Both the position numbers and the translations under genes were made by a program. This document shows positions 16,014 through 41,791 of a stretch of DNA of 64,000 nt, piece by piece. Source of the DNA: Cohaesibacter haloalkalitolerans (GTDB lineage Bacteria > Pseudomonadota > Alphaproteobacteria > Rhizobiales > Cohaesibacteraceae). Where the stretch lies: NCBI RefSeq assembly GCF_003574655.1, contig NZ_QNUM01000005.1:124001-188000 (forward strand), written 5' to 3'. The number at the start of each line of letters is the position of its first letter. Positions within the stretch are counted from its first letter, which is position 1. The notes under the pieces were generated by a model. The model searched no databases. It had not been told where the DNA came from and worked only from the letters and a program-made list of their open reading frames with translations.

Positions 16014-17609
16014 ATGGACGTAAAGCTCAAATTCTGCGGCGCCGCAGGCATCGTAACCGGTTCATGCTATCTGGTTCAGACGGCGGGACATAAATTTCTT
16101 GTCGATTGCGGCATGTTCCAGGGTACCAAGGCAGTCCGGTCCCTCAATTACGACGGCTTCCCCTTCGAGCCAGCCGAGATTGATTTCGTGCTCTTGACCC
16201 ATGCCCATATCGACCATTCCGGCCTGTTGCCAAAGCTCTACAAACAGGGTTTCACGGGGCCGACCTACATGACTGAGCCAACCGTCGATCTGCTTGCCGC
16301 TATGTTGCCTGACAGTGGCCACATCCAGGAAATGGACGTGATGAACCTCAACAGACGCAACACCCGTCGTGGCAAGCCCGAGATTGAGCCGATCTACACC
16401 CAGCAGGATGCTTTCGAATGTCAGACCTATTTCAGATCTGTCCCCTCGGAGGAATGGGTCGATATCGAAGGTATCCGCGCCAAATACTGGAATGCAGGTC
16501 ACATTCTGGGCTCCGCCTCCATTGCCCTCGAAATCCCATCCGATGATCCAAACGAGGAGAGCCTGCGGGTGTTGTTCTCCGGCGACCTTGGCCCTGATCA
16601 CAAGCTCTTCTATCCGGACCCGGCTGCCTCATCAGACTATGACTATGTCATCTCCGAGAGCACCTATGGCGGGCGCAATCGCCCGACTGTGACTCCGGAG
16701 CAGAAACGGCAGACCCTGTTGGAAGAAATCCAACTTGGCCTCAAGGACAACGGCCTGTTGCTCATCCCGTCCTTTGCCGTGGAACGGACACAGGAACTGC
16801 TGGCTGATATTCTGATCCTGCAGCACACAGGCCAATTGCAGGACGTGCCGATTTTCCTCGATAGTCCTCTGGCGATCAAGGCAACCGAAGTGTTCATCAA
16901 ACACGCGGGGGAACTGGAGGATGTCGGAGATTTCGTCAACAAGCTCGATACCTCGCGCATTCGCTTCACCCAATCGGTGGAAGAGAGCAAGGGCCTCAAT
17001 CGCATCAAGTCTGGCGCCATCATCATGGCTGGCAGCGGCATGTGCGATGCCGGTCGCATTCGTCACCACATCAAGAACCACATGTGGCGGACCAACACGA
17101 CGCTGCTGTTGGTGGGCTATCAGGCTGAAGGGTCTCTAGGTCGGCTGCTCGCCAACGGCGCCGAGAAGGTGCGTATTCAAGGCGAGGAAATCAGGATCCG
17201 TGGCAAGGTACGCCAGCTTGAAACCTATTCCGGTCACGCCGATGGCGATGAACTGATCGAGTGGATCCTCGAACGCCAGCCAATCCGCCACGGCCTGTTC
17301 CTCTGTCATGGCGAGCAGGAAGCCTCGGAAGCCTTGAAGGCAGCATTGGTCGAGAAGGGGTTGCCGGAAAAGATGATCACGATTCCGGCCATTGACGATG
17401 AAGTAAACCTGTCGGTCAAGGGCCTGGCAGAATACGCGCCAAACATCAAGCATCGTGTCCAGCAGTGTGATGTCTGCGGCTGGGACGCCCACAACGAGTT
17501 TGCCGAATTGCAGATCGACCTCAAGGAGGCGTTCGACAAACTGGCCGACGAAAAGTCCCGCAAGGCATTGGCTCGGCGTATCAAGCGTGCGCTGGAAGCT
17601 GCTGAATGA
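16014..17609 (+). CDS. MBL-fold beta-CASP metallo-hydrolase/RNA exonuclease
   Basis: This 531-residue enzyme has an N-terminal metallo-beta-lactamase domain with the metal motif THAHIDHSGLLP and a YWNAGHILGSASIAL ligand strand. A beta-CASP insertion (ESTYGGRNR, PSFAVERTQELLADIL) and a C-terminal Zn-dependent RNA-metabolising region (YSGHADGDELIEWI, LCHGEQEASEALK) follow. Members process RNA, as in the YSH1/CPSF-73-like family. GGAGAAAGGAAG precedes the ATG. A strong terminator follows. Its exact RNA target is unknown. Confidence 0.92.
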   Translation: MDVKLKFCGAAGIVTGSCYLVQTAGHKFLVDCGMFQGTKAVRSLNYDGFPFEPAEIDFVLLTHAHIDHSGLLPKLYKQGFTGPTYMTEPTVDLLAAMLPDSGHIQEMDVMNLNRRNTRRGKPEIEPIYTQQDAFECQTYFRSVPSEEWVDIEGIRAKYWNAGHILGSASIALEIPSDDPNEESLRVLFSGDLGPDHKLFYPDPAASSDYDYVISESTYGGRNRPTVTPEQKRQTLLEEIQLGLKDNGLLLIPSFAVERTQELLADILILQHTGQLQDVPIFLDSPLAIKATEVFIKHAGELEDVGDFVNKLDTSRIRFTQSVEESKGLNRIKSGAIIMAGSGMCDAGRIRHHIKNHMWRTNTTLLLVGYQAEGSLGRLLANGAEKVRIQGEEIRIRGKVRQLETYSGHADGDELIEWILERQPIRHGLFLCHGEQEASEALKAALVEKGLPEKMITIPAIDDEVNLSVKGLAEYAPNIKHRVQQCDVCGWDAHNEFAELQIDLKEAFDKLADEKSRKALARRIKRALEAAE

Positions 17610-25697: not shown

Positions 25698-25713
25698 TGT
25701 CGGAAATGCGACA
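25698..25713. promoter_or_regulatory. NifA upstream activator sequence shared by rnf and nifLA
   Basis: TGT-N10-ACA within the extended palindrome TTGTCGGAAATGCGACAA. It is the only such site seen between the divergent operons. Confidence 0.85.
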
Positions 25714-28449: not shown

Positions 28450-28465
28450 TGTCGCATCTACGACA
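28450..28465. promoter_or_regulatory. NifA upstream activator sequence of nifB
   Basis: TGT-N10-ACA within TTGTCGCATCTACGACAA, a perfect 6+6 palindrome, about 80 bp before the sigma-54 promoter. Confidence 0.87.
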
Positions 28466-33115: not shown

Positions 33116-33130
33116 CCCGCGTTGCTCTCT

Positions 33131-33592
33131 TCAGAGAGCGGTGGGAGCTGGAGGCGAGTCGGCTATGATATCCGTTGCCGTATCACCAAGCGCAATCTCG
33201 AAGCCGGTCTCCTTCAGATAGGTCGCCAGCGCATTGTCCATCATCACCGCGTGGACGTCAAACCATCGTGGCAGATCCTCGACAAAGGCCCGGCCAAAGG
33301 CGATCTTGCCAGTCTGGACCTTTTCGTTGATGTAGCTCATCTGTTTGAGAACCCGCGCGTGCTCGTGCCGGTGCTCCTCGCATCCGTGAAAGCCGCTCTC
33401 TTCCATGAGCTTCTCTTCAGTTGAGAAATGCTCTTGGGTATGTTCCAGCAACTGGATGAAAAGCGACTTGAAAATGGATGGGTCGAGAGTTTCTCCCAAC
33501 CGGTTTACAATGAGCGTAAAGCCCTGATGGATGTGATCCATCTCTTCGACGCCCACAAGGTGCTTGCCTTCGTCCCACTCGATTAATGCCAT
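33131..33592 (-). CDS. Bacteriohemerythrin
   Basis: This 153-residue four-helix O2-binding protein has the diiron ligand pattern: H in VEEMDHIHQGF, H-x3-E in EHTQEHFSTEEKLM, H-x3-H in HGCEEHRHEHARVL, and H-x4-D in WFDVHAVMMDNAL. The ATG at 33592 (MALIEWDEG) is the standard N-terminus. It lies 33 bases downstream of the SIR2-like gene on the same strand, probably as an operon diverging from nifH. Likely roles are O2 buffering, delivery or sensing near nitrogenase. Confidence 0.92.
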   Translation of the reverse strand: MALIEWDEGKHLVGVEEMDHIHQGFTLIVNRLGETLDPSIFKSLFIQLLEHTQEHFSTEEKLMEESGFHGCEEHRHEHARVLKQMSYINEKVQTGKIAFGRAFVEDLPRWFDVHAVMMDNALATYLKETGFEIALGDTATDIIADSPPAPTAL

Positions 33593-33625
33593 ATTGTGTC
33601 CCCACACACTTTGGAATTGCTATAT

Positions 33626-34489
33626 CTATACCACAGAGTGAACAGATACGGGAATACCCGCTGCTTCAAGAAAGTCGGCCACACCCAATTCCATGATTTC
33701 AATGGCCTTTTTCTTGCAATAGCGGCGTTCTTTGTCCGTTGGTTCCTTGATCAGCGCCCAGCCAGTGGACTCATTTGCACCAAAGGTGATGTCCGACATC
33801 ACCATCCGTTCCGTATCGCGTGTGAAGCGCATTCCCAGAAACAGATATTGCTTTCCCCTTCGGTAGCTCTTGAGGAACGGCGGTACACCGAACCCGCCCA
33901 TCAGTTCGGTGAGATAGTCGACAAAGTCGGCATCCGAGGCGATGTAGGTCGGTTGCGGCTCTGGCGACCCAAGCGGCTTGAACAGGATCGGCAGATCTGA
34001 TGTGAGTGCCTCTGGATCGATCGGCTGATAGCCCGTGCCGTCATGGTGGTGAATGATGAAGCGATTGTTCGTCCCGCCGATCCGGGCGATGCCGCGCACC
34101 AGATAGTGGGGCTTGTCGGCAAAGCCCTGTTGCAGCTGCAGGTCCCGGTTGATGTCGATGACATAGGGCGGCGCGCAATCTCTGATCCAGTCATGCAGGG
34201 CGGCCCGCGACCATTGTTGCTGCTGGTAGAGCTGGGTGAGGAATTGTTCGATGAAACGGCGACCCCGCTTGAGTTCCAGATTCATTGCTGCGCGGGAGAA
34301 TTCATACATCAGCTTTGGTGCCATGGGGCGGCCCTTGTTCATGGCAAGGATCAGGCTGTCGCTGCCCGCCGGTATCGGTTCGCCCGTTGTGTCGTTGGTC
34401 ACGTCAAACAGCGCGCCGGGGCCAAGGTAGGGGATGACGTCGCCGCTGCCGACTTTTTTCACGATCTCATCTAGGAGTGCCTTGGTCAT
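33626..34489 (-). CDS. SIR2-like domain protein associated with nif genes
   Basis: This 287-residue protein shows features of the SIR2-like (Sir2_2) NAD-binding fold: an early VIPYLGPGAL glycine turn, YVIDINRDLQLQQ at the position of the usual TTNYD asparagine motif, LFKPLGSPEP at the K-x-H-G position (His replaced) and a late KQYLFLGMRF strand. Similar genes occur beside nif genes in other alphaproteobacteria, in my recollection, but no role is established. The ATG at 34489 is preferred because the family sequence begins at MTKALLDEIV. A weak minus-strand sigma-54 promoter is at 34541-34556. Confidence 0.72.
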   Translation of the reverse strand: MTKALLDEIVKKVGSGDVIPYLGPGALFDVTNDTTGEPIPAGSDSLILAMNKGRPMAPKLMYEFSRAAMNLELKRGRRFIEQFLTQLYQQQQWSRAALHDWIRDCAPPYVIDINRDLQLQQGFADKPHYLVRGIARIGGTNNRFIIHHHDGTGYQPIDPEALTSDLPILFKPLGSPEPQPTYIASDADFVDYLTELMGGFGVPPFLKSYRRGKQYLFLGMRFTRDTERMVMSDITFGANESTGWALIKEPTDKERRYCKKKAIEIMELGVADFLEAAGIPVSVHSVV

Positions 34490-34540
34490 GACTGTGCCTG
34501 CCGTTCTGTTATTGGTGCAATGTCTGGTTCCTTGAGACAA

Positions 34541-34556
34541 GCAAGAAGCAAACCAA
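34541..34556 (-). promoter_or_regulatory. Candidate weak sigma-54 promoter of SIR2-like/hemerythrin genes
   Basis: The minus strand reads TTGGTTTGCTTCTTGC: GG-N10-GC spacing and a good -12 box, but the -24 box is GGTTT instead of GGCAC. It sits about 57 bp from the distal NifA site and 52 bp from the gene start. Confidence 0.4.
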
Positions 34557-34612
34557 GTCATGAAATTCATTCAAGGCGCTGAAATAATTCAGATAATTGA
34601 AGTTTTGAGGCG

Positions 34613-34628
34613 TGTCGGGTTTGCGACA
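34613..34628. promoter_or_regulatory. Distal NifA upstream activator sequence of nifH
   Basis: TGT-N10-ACA in GTGTCGGGTTTGCGACAA. It lies about 210 bp from the nifH promoter but close to the divergent SIR2-like gene. Confidence 0.75.
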
Positions 34629-34723: not shown

Positions 34724-34739
34724 TGTCGCCTATACGACA
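34724..34739. promoter_or_regulatory. Proximal NifA upstream activator sequence of nifH
   Basis: TGT-N10-ACA in CTGTCGCCTATACGACAA, about 100 bp upstream of the sigma-54 promoter, the classic distance. Confidence 0.88.
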
Positions 34740-34828: not shown

Positions 34829-35815
<987 letters not shown>

Positions 35816-40785: not shown

Positions 40786-41763
40786 ATGACCGACTATGAG
40801 CCACGCACCGCTCAACTCAAGGAAATCTGCCGTAAAGTCAAACCCGGCGTTCATCATGTCTCGCTGGTCGAAGCGGTTGGCACCGTGCTGCCCGATCTGA
40901 AATTCCGCTATCGCACGACGCTCAGCGGCTGGTATCGGCTGGGTGGGCTTGTCGACAGCGATGGCAACCGGATCGCCGCCAGTCTGAGGGAATGGGCAGA
41001 GGAAGAGTCCGATCATGACATGTTCGCACTCTATGAAAAATATGGTGCTGCCGACTACATGACCACCCGCTTTGACGGCAAATGCCACTATTTCGTTGCA
41101 CCGATCGGACCGAATGCGGCTGACTTCGTTCAGCTCAAGGTGGAGGAGCTGACCGAGGTCATCGACCATCCGCTGTTCATCAATGATCAGGTGCCGGATG
41201 ATCTTGAAGATCTGCTCGATCCGCATGGAGCCTTTGCGGCGCGGGTCGAGCCAGCGGAAATGACACCGCCCCGCTATCTGTTCCATTCGATTACCGATAT
41301 CAGCGCGCTGGTGGGCAAGCAGCTCTCCTCCGAAGGGTCCGATCTGCGCTATATCCGCTTCCTGGAGGAATGGGGCAACACCACCGCTTCCAGCAAGGAG
41401 CGCTTCAGCGACCATTTTGTTCTCAAGCTGCTGCCGTTCCTCGATCGCTTCGGCGAACGCAAGACCGAGGCGACGCCGGTTCCCGTCAAGAAGCTGCCTT
41501 TGCCCAGCGACAATGTCGCCACCATGACCGGTACCAGCCTGTCGCATTTCCTCAAGGAATATGACAAGAACGCCGGTTTTCCCATGGCGTGGTATTTCAA
41601 CATGCTGGTCGAACAGAAGATCTGGCCGCAAATCGCCATGGCGGTCTACACCGATCATCAGCGCAACTATCGCTATCTTGCCGAAAAGGATCTCGAAGTG
41701 CTCGAGAACTGGATCCGCTTTCCCTATGTCTTTGGCGCTGGAGCCTTGCCGACATTGTTGTAA
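40786..41763 (+). CDS. Nif-associated protein of unknown function
   Basis: This 325-residue soluble protein (starts MTDYEPRTAQLKEIC) has no recognised domain. Visible features are an acidic middle (DDLEDLLDPHGAF), a few scattered cysteines (C15 and C98, not clustered) and aromatic-rich C-terminal helices (FPMAWYFNMLVEQKIWPQIAM). It ends the nifHDKT operon and is followed by the nifE control region, so co-expression with nitrogenase is likely. Its exact role cannot be inferred. Confidence 0.7.
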   Translation: MTDYEPRTAQLKEICRKVKPGVHHVSLVEAVGTVLPDLKFRYRTTLSGWYRLGGLVDSDGNRIAASLREWAEEESDHDMFALYEKYGAADYMTTRFDGKCHYFVAPIGPNAADFVQLKVEELTEVIDHPLFINDQVPDDLEDLLDPHGAFAARVEPAEMTPPRYLFHSITDISALVGKQLSSEGSDLRYIRFLEEWGNTTASSKERFSDHFVLKLLPFLDRFGERKTEATPVPVKKLPLPSDNVATMTGTSLSHFLKEYDKNAGFPMAWYFNMLVEQKIWPQIAMAVYTDHQRNYRYLAEKDLEVLENWIRFPYVFGAGALPTLL

Positions 41764-41775
41764 CGGCAAGGCGAT

Positions 41776-41791
41776 TGTCGGTTTTGCGACA
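41776..41791. promoter_or_regulatory. NifA upstream activator sequence of nifE
   Basis: TGT-N10-ACA in TTGTCGGTTTTGCGACAT, only about 45 bp before the sigma-54 promoter. Confidence 0.83.

Follow-up and report, generated by a model that had tools for sequence, protein, structure and literature searches.

A SIR2-like gene of probable PnfA type beside nifH in Cohaesibacter haloalkalitolerans and its optional hemerythrin neighbour

We analysed a 64,000-nucleotide stretch of DNA from Cohaesibacter haloalkalitolerans (hereafter, the window), in which a gene for a SIR2-like protein, followed by a gene for a bacteriohemerythrin-like protein, is directed away from nifH. The SIR2-like gene is very probably of the PnfA type, described for Pseudomonas stutzeri by Yan et al. 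in 2010; place, orientation, promoter type, size, taxonomic range and annotation, not sequence, point to this assignment. The pnfA-type gene is already known, and what our analysis adds is a predicted SIR2 fold with residue loss, the near-confinement of the family to nif genomes, and the optional hemerythrin partner. Taking the evidence together, we consider it moderately probable that the product is a PnfA-type accessory protein, with a SIR2 fold lacking the full catalytic pair, that supports nitrogenase at low O2, the hemerythrin acting as an O2 buffer.

In the mechanism that we propose, the SIR2-like gene would be transcribed divergently from nifH from a NifA/sigma-54 promoter of its own, with the hemerythrin gene behind it in what appears to be one transcription unit. 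The SIR2-like protein would bind NAD, an ADP-ribose-like ligand or a nitrogenase component and would keep already-made nitrogenase active at slight O2, a post-transcriptional effect, while the di-iron hemerythrin, where present, would buffer or deliver O2 beside it. How nitrogenase functions near O2 is an old question, and the PnfA-type protein is a concrete, testable candidate that combines NifA control, near-confinement to nif genomes, a published low-O2 phenotype, a NADase-like fold, and hemerythrin and draT neighbours.

The SIR2-like gene and the nifH gap

The SIR2-like gene occupies positions 33626–34489 of the minus strand (ATG at 34489, stop at 33626) and encodes 287 amino acids with a calculated mass of 32.2 kDa. 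A gap of 447 bp separates it from nifH (34937–35815, plus strand, in the ORF list), the first gene of the divergent nifHDK, and an intergenic segment of 33 bp (33593–33625) separates it from the downstream hemerythrin gene on the same strand (33131–33592; ATG at 33592, stop at 33131; 153 amino acids). These ORF positions confirmed the preliminary description of two same-strand genes, 33 bp apart and facing away from nifH. An alternative ATG at 34570 is unlikely to be the start of the SIR2-like gene, because the promoter-like site described below falls within that longer frame. The nif cluster that encloses the pair spans about 30 kb, with rnf, nifA, nifB, fprA, ferredoxin genes and nifQ on one flank and nifHDK, nifT, nifE, nifN and nifX on the other (most names were read off translations; NifQ and NifT were assigned by Pfam). 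Where the nifQ and hemerythrin genes converge, an inverted repeat with seven of seven positions paired (GCTCTCT/AGAGAGC, 33124–33139) is a possible bidirectional terminator. The cluster also encodes a 325-residue protein (40786–41763, plus strand) that has no Pfam or NCBIfam match and is matched at similar positions in many related nif clusters.

Promoter-like sites were scored with weights and a sigma-54 consensus of our own. The gap contains a strong sigma-54 site for nifH, CTGGCACACCCTTTGCA (34838–34854, plus strand; score 24 of 25), and a weaker sigma-54-like −24/−12 site towards the SIR2-like gene, TTGGTTTGCTTCTTGCT (34540–34556, minus strand; score 20.5 of 25), which lies 50 bp 5′ of the ATG and is the weak GG-N10-GC promoter previously noted as pointing to the pair. 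Against 2000 shuffles that preserve base composition only, the weaker site gave p = 0.02. Taken alone it is a weak promoter candidate: counting both strands, the window has 32 sites that score as high, 0.11 being expected in the gap on one strand, and the case for a SIR2-like promoter therefore rests on conservation. Among 27 nifH-adjacent relatives, 23 have a similar site that points to the SIR2-like gene (p ≤ 0.06, with 200 shuffles for each relative); in the remaining four, L051, L097, L101 and L111, it fell short of p 0.06.

Two putative upstream activator sites for NifA lie in the same gap. The one distal to nifH, TGTCGGGTTTGCGACA (34613–34628), is present as first described and stands 72 bp, start to start, upstream of the SIR2-like promoter-like site; the other, TGTCGCCTATACGACA (34724–34739), stands 114 bp upstream of the nifH promoter, counted in the same way. 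The TGT-N10-ACA motif shows no excess in the 64 kb (13 occurrences against 15.6 expected under uniform base composition), and, at the density seen in the window itself, two occurrences within 447 bp have a Poisson p of 0.004. A longer dyad, TGTCG-N6-CGACA, is present at five sites only in the 64 kb (25698, 28450, 34613, 34724 and 41776), and all five fall inside the nif cluster; by the ORF list, the site at 28450 lies upstream of nifB, that at 41776 upstream of nifE, and that at 25698 where another frame starts, some 1 kb ahead of nifA. The dyad is likely to be a genome-specific NifA site. In 17 of the 27 relatives, a NifA site starts 59–114 bp upstream of the SIR2-like promoter site. Control of the gene by NifA, proposed earlier, is supported by this recurrence of promoter and activator site and by the regulation reported for P. 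stutzeri.

According to the available part of the 2010 paper on P. stutzeri A1501 (PMC2820453), pnfA (PST1325) is oriented opposite to nifH, has a −24/−12 promoter and a TGT-N10-ACA motif, and needs NifA and RpoN for expression; its product is 31.7 kDa, and its homologues, found in diazotrophs only, form two subfamilies that are about 20% identical. The window gene resembles pnfA in its divergent place beside nifH, in its −24/−12 promoter with TGT-N10-ACA upstream, in its size of about 32 kDa, in its restriction to diazotrophs and in the later SIR2 annotation: PST_1325 appears as a ‘SIR2 family protein’ beside nifH in the accessible portion of PMC11332353, and PF13289 is barely over its cut-off in the window protein. 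Position, size, annotation and range would thus make the two genes orthologues, and we take the two published subfamilies to be the two groups, lineage B and group A, that we distinguish below. In the text of the 2010 paper that is available (PMC2820453), neither ‘SIR2’ nor ‘hemerythrin’ appears.

The same text reports that in a non-polar pnfA mutant the activity of nitrogenase was 23% at 0.5% O2 and normal anaerobically without nitrate, that the nifH transcript was unchanged, and that nitrate-supported anaerobic N2 fixation was lost; complementation, and persistent growth of the mutant on nitrogen-free medium, are stated there with data not shown (PMC2820453). The link with O2 made in the preliminary description agrees with this phenotype, activity falling at 0.5% O2 and not under anaerobiosis, whereas control exerted through nifH transcription does not. 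Its view of the pair as a candidate undescribed system is very probably wrong for the SIR2-like gene, because pnfA has been in print since 2010; moreover, a nif regulon figure carries the label ‘hr, hemerythrin’ in the available part of PMC11208148.

O2 protection alone does not explain the nitrate-linked anaerobic loss. This loss, with nitrate as the acceptor, is what would be expected if the SIR2-like protein acted in electron supply to nitrogenase instead of O2 protection, a role that the authors of the 2010 paper raised too. The location of the gene between rnf, fprA and ferredoxin genes and nifHDK fits such a role, as do the rseC-like and apbE-like frames that follow the SIR2-like and hemerythrin genes in three order-mates, L027–L029 (called by Pfam on one frame of each kind), and the identity of about 31% that the authors noted between one PnfA region and an ETF-alpha-like protein, as given in the accessible text (PMC2820453). 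Nevertheless, we regard a role in electron supply as quite unlikely, for Pfam sees a SIR2 domain alone and NCBIfam nothing, and the anaerobic activity of the mutant without nitrate was normal.

Distribution of the SIR2-like family among nif genomes

A family profile built from 14 relatives was run on 398 genomes of the phylum. The family was found in 17 of them and nifD over the cut-off in 41, with 15 genomes having both (Fisher p = 1.3e-14, uncorrected for kinship; four of the 17 positives, the window, G042, G043 and G244, are rows of the profile itself). The other two family-positive genomes, G609 and G439, have below-cut-off matches to the nifD model only, of a strength that a second, nifE-like gene shows in other genomes; in G609 there is, in addition, a short fragment of nifD interrupted by a stop. 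The profile search did not find the family in 26 of the 41 nifD-positive genomes, and the family is therefore not needed by all diazotrophs.

A scan of contigs gave at least 588 pattern matches and at least 173 relatives, from which 80 loci that belong to the same lineage as the window (lineage B) were kept among the matches listed; 78 of the 80 had usable frames. All locus counts refer to genomes and do not represent independent events: L029 and L041 have sequence blocks in common and represent one contig, and the tree shows L075/L076, L055/L062 and L094/L110 as near-copies. Among the matches listed, a nif gene lay inside the fetched stretch in 65 of the 80 loci. In the 44 whose stretch lacked nifD, the genome had nifD over the cut-off in 37 and some match in 42; in the two without a genome match, L051 and L114, nifH or nifQ adjoins the SIR2-like gene. 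NifH was antiparallel to the SIR2-like gene in all 40 of the 80 listed loci that hold it; it lay within 900 bp in 24, and NifH there was 85–98% identical. All five plasmid records examined, of 71, also sit in nif clusters. The SIR2-like family occurs almost exclusively in nif genomes, and the role of a nitrogenase accessory given to it in the preliminary description gains support from this restriction.

In the window's genus (18 genomes including the window, G791 being only 64% complete), a whole SIR2-like gene was present in 12 of 12 nifD-positive and in none of the six nifD-negative genomes. In the nifD-negative G798, the genes that border the nif cluster in the window enclose a short C-terminal remnant of the SIR2-like gene and a hemerythrin gene that is intact, probably the scar of nif cluster loss; at this locus (L146, 8671–9404), a short cysE-like tail accompanies the SIR2-like tail beside the hemerythrin gene. 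According to a paper in Nature on a diatom symbiont, the Nif sequences of the Cohaesibacteraceae group with those of gammaproteobacteria, a pattern like that left by horizontal transfer (PMC11208148).

The SIR2 fold and its catalytic positions

Pfam assigned PF13289 (SIR2_2) to the window protein with E = 1.1e-5, at 26 bits barely above the cut-off of 24.5, and an NCBIfam scan of the protein gave no match; its best named match, among those listed, is a protein of Cohaesibacter marisflavi that is 73% identical. The structure model (pLDDT 91.4) has a predicted SIR2-NADase fold, and its best Foldseek matches are the SIR2 domains of DSR2, KomC and ThsA, with a TMq of about 0.6 and identities of 12–15% among the best 50 of 303 matches. 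From these phage-defence NADases, which it resembles in fold, the window protein differs in that the catalytic His is absent and PADLOC has no match. We reject the reading as an anti-phage defence gene: PADLOC matched neither the window protein nor L097, and the family follows nif. One group-A protein, L008, has a weak PADLOC match to ThsA (E 2.4e-4).

Catalytic positions were compared in an alignment of 57 rows, of which 47 belong to lineage B (45 of the 80 loci, the window and L027) and ten to group A, other nif-cluster proteins with 22–26% identity to the window protein; a further alignment consisted of the identical 45 loci and the window. SIR2_2 was found in 56 of the 57 rows. The motif K-x-H-G, which we take to carry the catalytic His, reads KPLGS in the window protein, and its His is Leu173, as the PLGS of the preliminary description had indicated. 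This position was assigned from the motif and the preceding strand in the model; the KomC alignment does not reach it in register. Lineage B has Met here in 31 rows, Leu in 12, and Val, Ala, Thr and His in one each, so that the catalytic His is absent from 46 of 47 rows; the loss is lineage-wide, and a quirk of the window gene is ruled out. The Asn of TTN-x-D is Asn114; all 47 lineage-B rows retain it, and it aligns with the TTNYD stretch of KomC in a weak profile match (E 0.005). In group A, unlike the window protein, Asn is replaced by Trp in ten of ten rows and His is retained in six. The full Asn/His pair is missing from 46 of 47 lineage-B and all ten group-A rows, and E72, R77, H99, D112, D186, D188, R210, R228 and E254 are invariant in all 57.

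We read these replacements as a loss of ordinary SIR2 chemistry in the family; the pair being incomplete, ordinary NADase or deacetylase turnover is therefore not expected. The loss of one catalytic residue is not proof of inactivity, and another residue could stand in for His. The protein might then be an active NAD-consuming or NAD-dependent enzyme (a NADase, deacetylase or de-ADP-ribosylase) that works on NifH or another Nif protein by His-independent chemistry. The SIR2-NADase fold of the model, the Asn114 invariant in lineage B and the many charged residues invariant in 57 of 57 rows are consistent with such an enzyme, and deacetylation has been proposed for the homologue ZMO1821 in the accessible part of PMC8600466. 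We consider it unlikely, however, in view of the Met or Leu that takes the place of His in 43 of 47 lineage-B rows, the Trp that takes the place of Asn in ten of ten group-A rows, and the results for DraT and DraG given next.

The enzyme reading also draws on these neighbours. Among the 80 loci, 12 have draT (identified by PF07357 on one member) between the SIR2-like gene and the antiparallel nifH, at most 700 bp upstream of the former and on its strand, and in four more draT is farther off; draG lies downstream on the opposite strand in 33, among the matches listed. Apparent draT–pnfA units are seen, for example, in L044 (6329–7285) and L066 (9011–9865). In this respect the genes recall the DraT/DraG switch-off of nitrogenase; the window differs from it in having a protein of a different family and a genome without a match. 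PF07357 (DraT) matched nothing in the window genome, with five of five genomes of draT-bearing loci positive as the control (an earlier run had also given no match, its control being silent), nor in the C. marisflavi genome and three order-mates; PF03747 (ADP-ribosylglycohydrolase, DraG) matched nothing in the window genome either, with the control positive in five of 14. Dependence on DraT/DraG in the window genome is rejected on the basis of these searches. The authors of the 2010 paper likewise found no DraT/DraG in P. stutzeri A1501, according to its available text (PMC2820453). With none found in either genome, DraT-modified NifH is therefore not the general substrate. A bolder version of the accessory role is doubtful in our estimate: a SIR2-NADase fold recruited to nitrogen fixation, PnfA would sense NAD(H) or ADP-ribose without hydrolysing it and sustain nitrogenase in micro-oxic conditions, forming with the hemerythrin an O2-linked post-translational module in diazotrophs that have no DraT/DraG and acting alongside DraT where the two coexist.

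Proteins annotated as SIR2 and located in nif clusters next to nifT are known from rhizobia, Rhodobacter and Rhodovulum, and we place Zymomonas ZMO1821 with them by its position in the nif cluster. The available parts of the respective papers report that Rhodobacter capsulatus Rcc03262 was detected in the wild type and not in a nifA double mutant (PMC6925177), name the related protein of the Zymomonas nif cluster (PMC8594446, PMC8600466) and a related SIR2 family protein in that of Rhodovulum (PMC9412634), and describe ZMO1821 as raised under N2-fixing conditions (PMC8600466) and also, a point against the proposed role, under phenolic aldehyde stress (PMC4578398). The NifA dependence of Rcc03262 and the rise of ZMO1821 under N2-fixing conditions are likenesses to the window gene. 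The Rhodobacter, Rhodovulum and Zymomonas sequences were not identified among the ten group-A rows. The label ‘SIR2 family deacetylase’ is probably misleading for the family, which bears on the acetylation proposal for Zymomonas. In a Paraburkholderia plasmid whose cluster has a group-A SIR2-like gene (L009), a truncated hemoglobin gene (16143–16562) lies near nifH.

The hemerythrin gene and other neighbours

The hemerythrin of the window matched Pfam PF01814 (E = 4.6e-8) and NCBIfam TIGR02481 (69.4 bits, the cut-off being 51.75). It resembles bacteriohemerythrins in this domain and in the seven di-iron ligand positions (five His, one Glu and one Asp), and differs from them in falling under the cut-off of the NCBI bacteriohemerythrin model NF033749 (75.4 against 84 bits) and in its linkage to nif. 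The ligand positions H22, H55, E59, H74, H78, H114 and D119 were identical in all 24 aligned rows, which comprise the window and 23 of the 24 adjacent hemerythrins, L067 being left out for want of a complete frame.

In the preliminary description, the two genes were treated as one unit; an obligate pair is contradicted by the neighbour counts. Within 1 kb downstream of the SIR2-like gene and on the same strand, a hemerythrin gene was found in 24 of 74 loci, from alpha-, beta- and gammaproteobacteria by record titles, and tblastn with the window protein (E 1e-4), which may miss divergent ones, found none in the other 50, all among the matches listed; the 74 are the 24 with hemerythrin and the 50 with at least 1 kb downstream, six shorter loci being excluded. 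In the genus, it is adjacent in nine of 12 nif-positive genomes, with 48–59 bp between match ends, and was not found in three (G370, G792 and G797). In a tree of 26 SIR2-linked and 14 other hemerythrins, in which many forks are weak, the two labels change twice, compared with a shuffled mean of 11.7; three of the 14 others (L097, L101 and L111) also come from nif regions. In these three Oceanobacter-type loci, the hemerythrin-like gene lies 8–9 kb from the SIR2-like gene, beyond nifHDK, and thus adjoins nif in a different arrangement.

The hemerythrin gene might still be where it is by chance or by hitch-hiking and contribute nothing to nitrogen fixation: it was not found in most lineage-B loci, it is kept without nif in G798, and one ligand is lost in G799, whose adjacent hemerythrin (L151, a whole frame outside the 24 aligned rows) has Gln for the ligand His55. 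We judge this improbable, given the directly downstream, same-strand position in 24 of 74 loci across three proteobacterial classes, the adjacency in the genus, the few label changes in the tree and the seven ligand positions kept in 24 of 24 rows. The pairing is real but optional. In G799, iron or O2 binding may have been lost in this one species. A plasmid search with the hemerythrin gave 20 records, all below 60% identity. Among the papers listed from an open-access library, we recognised none as describing the SIR2-like/hemerythrin pair, and none there joined hemerythrin, draT and nifH.

Other genes recur around the SIR2-like gene. In two of the order-mates, L027 and L028, a small unknown frame lies between the SIR2-like and hemerythrin genes. 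A small Cys-containing frame follows the SIR2-like gene directly in 19 of the 80 loci (for example, L079, 10873–11148), and the one member scanned had a sub-threshold match to DUF1289. In five loci (L045, L046, L047, L050 and L052), cowN, for CO protection of nitrogenase, lies downstream of the SIR2-like gene.
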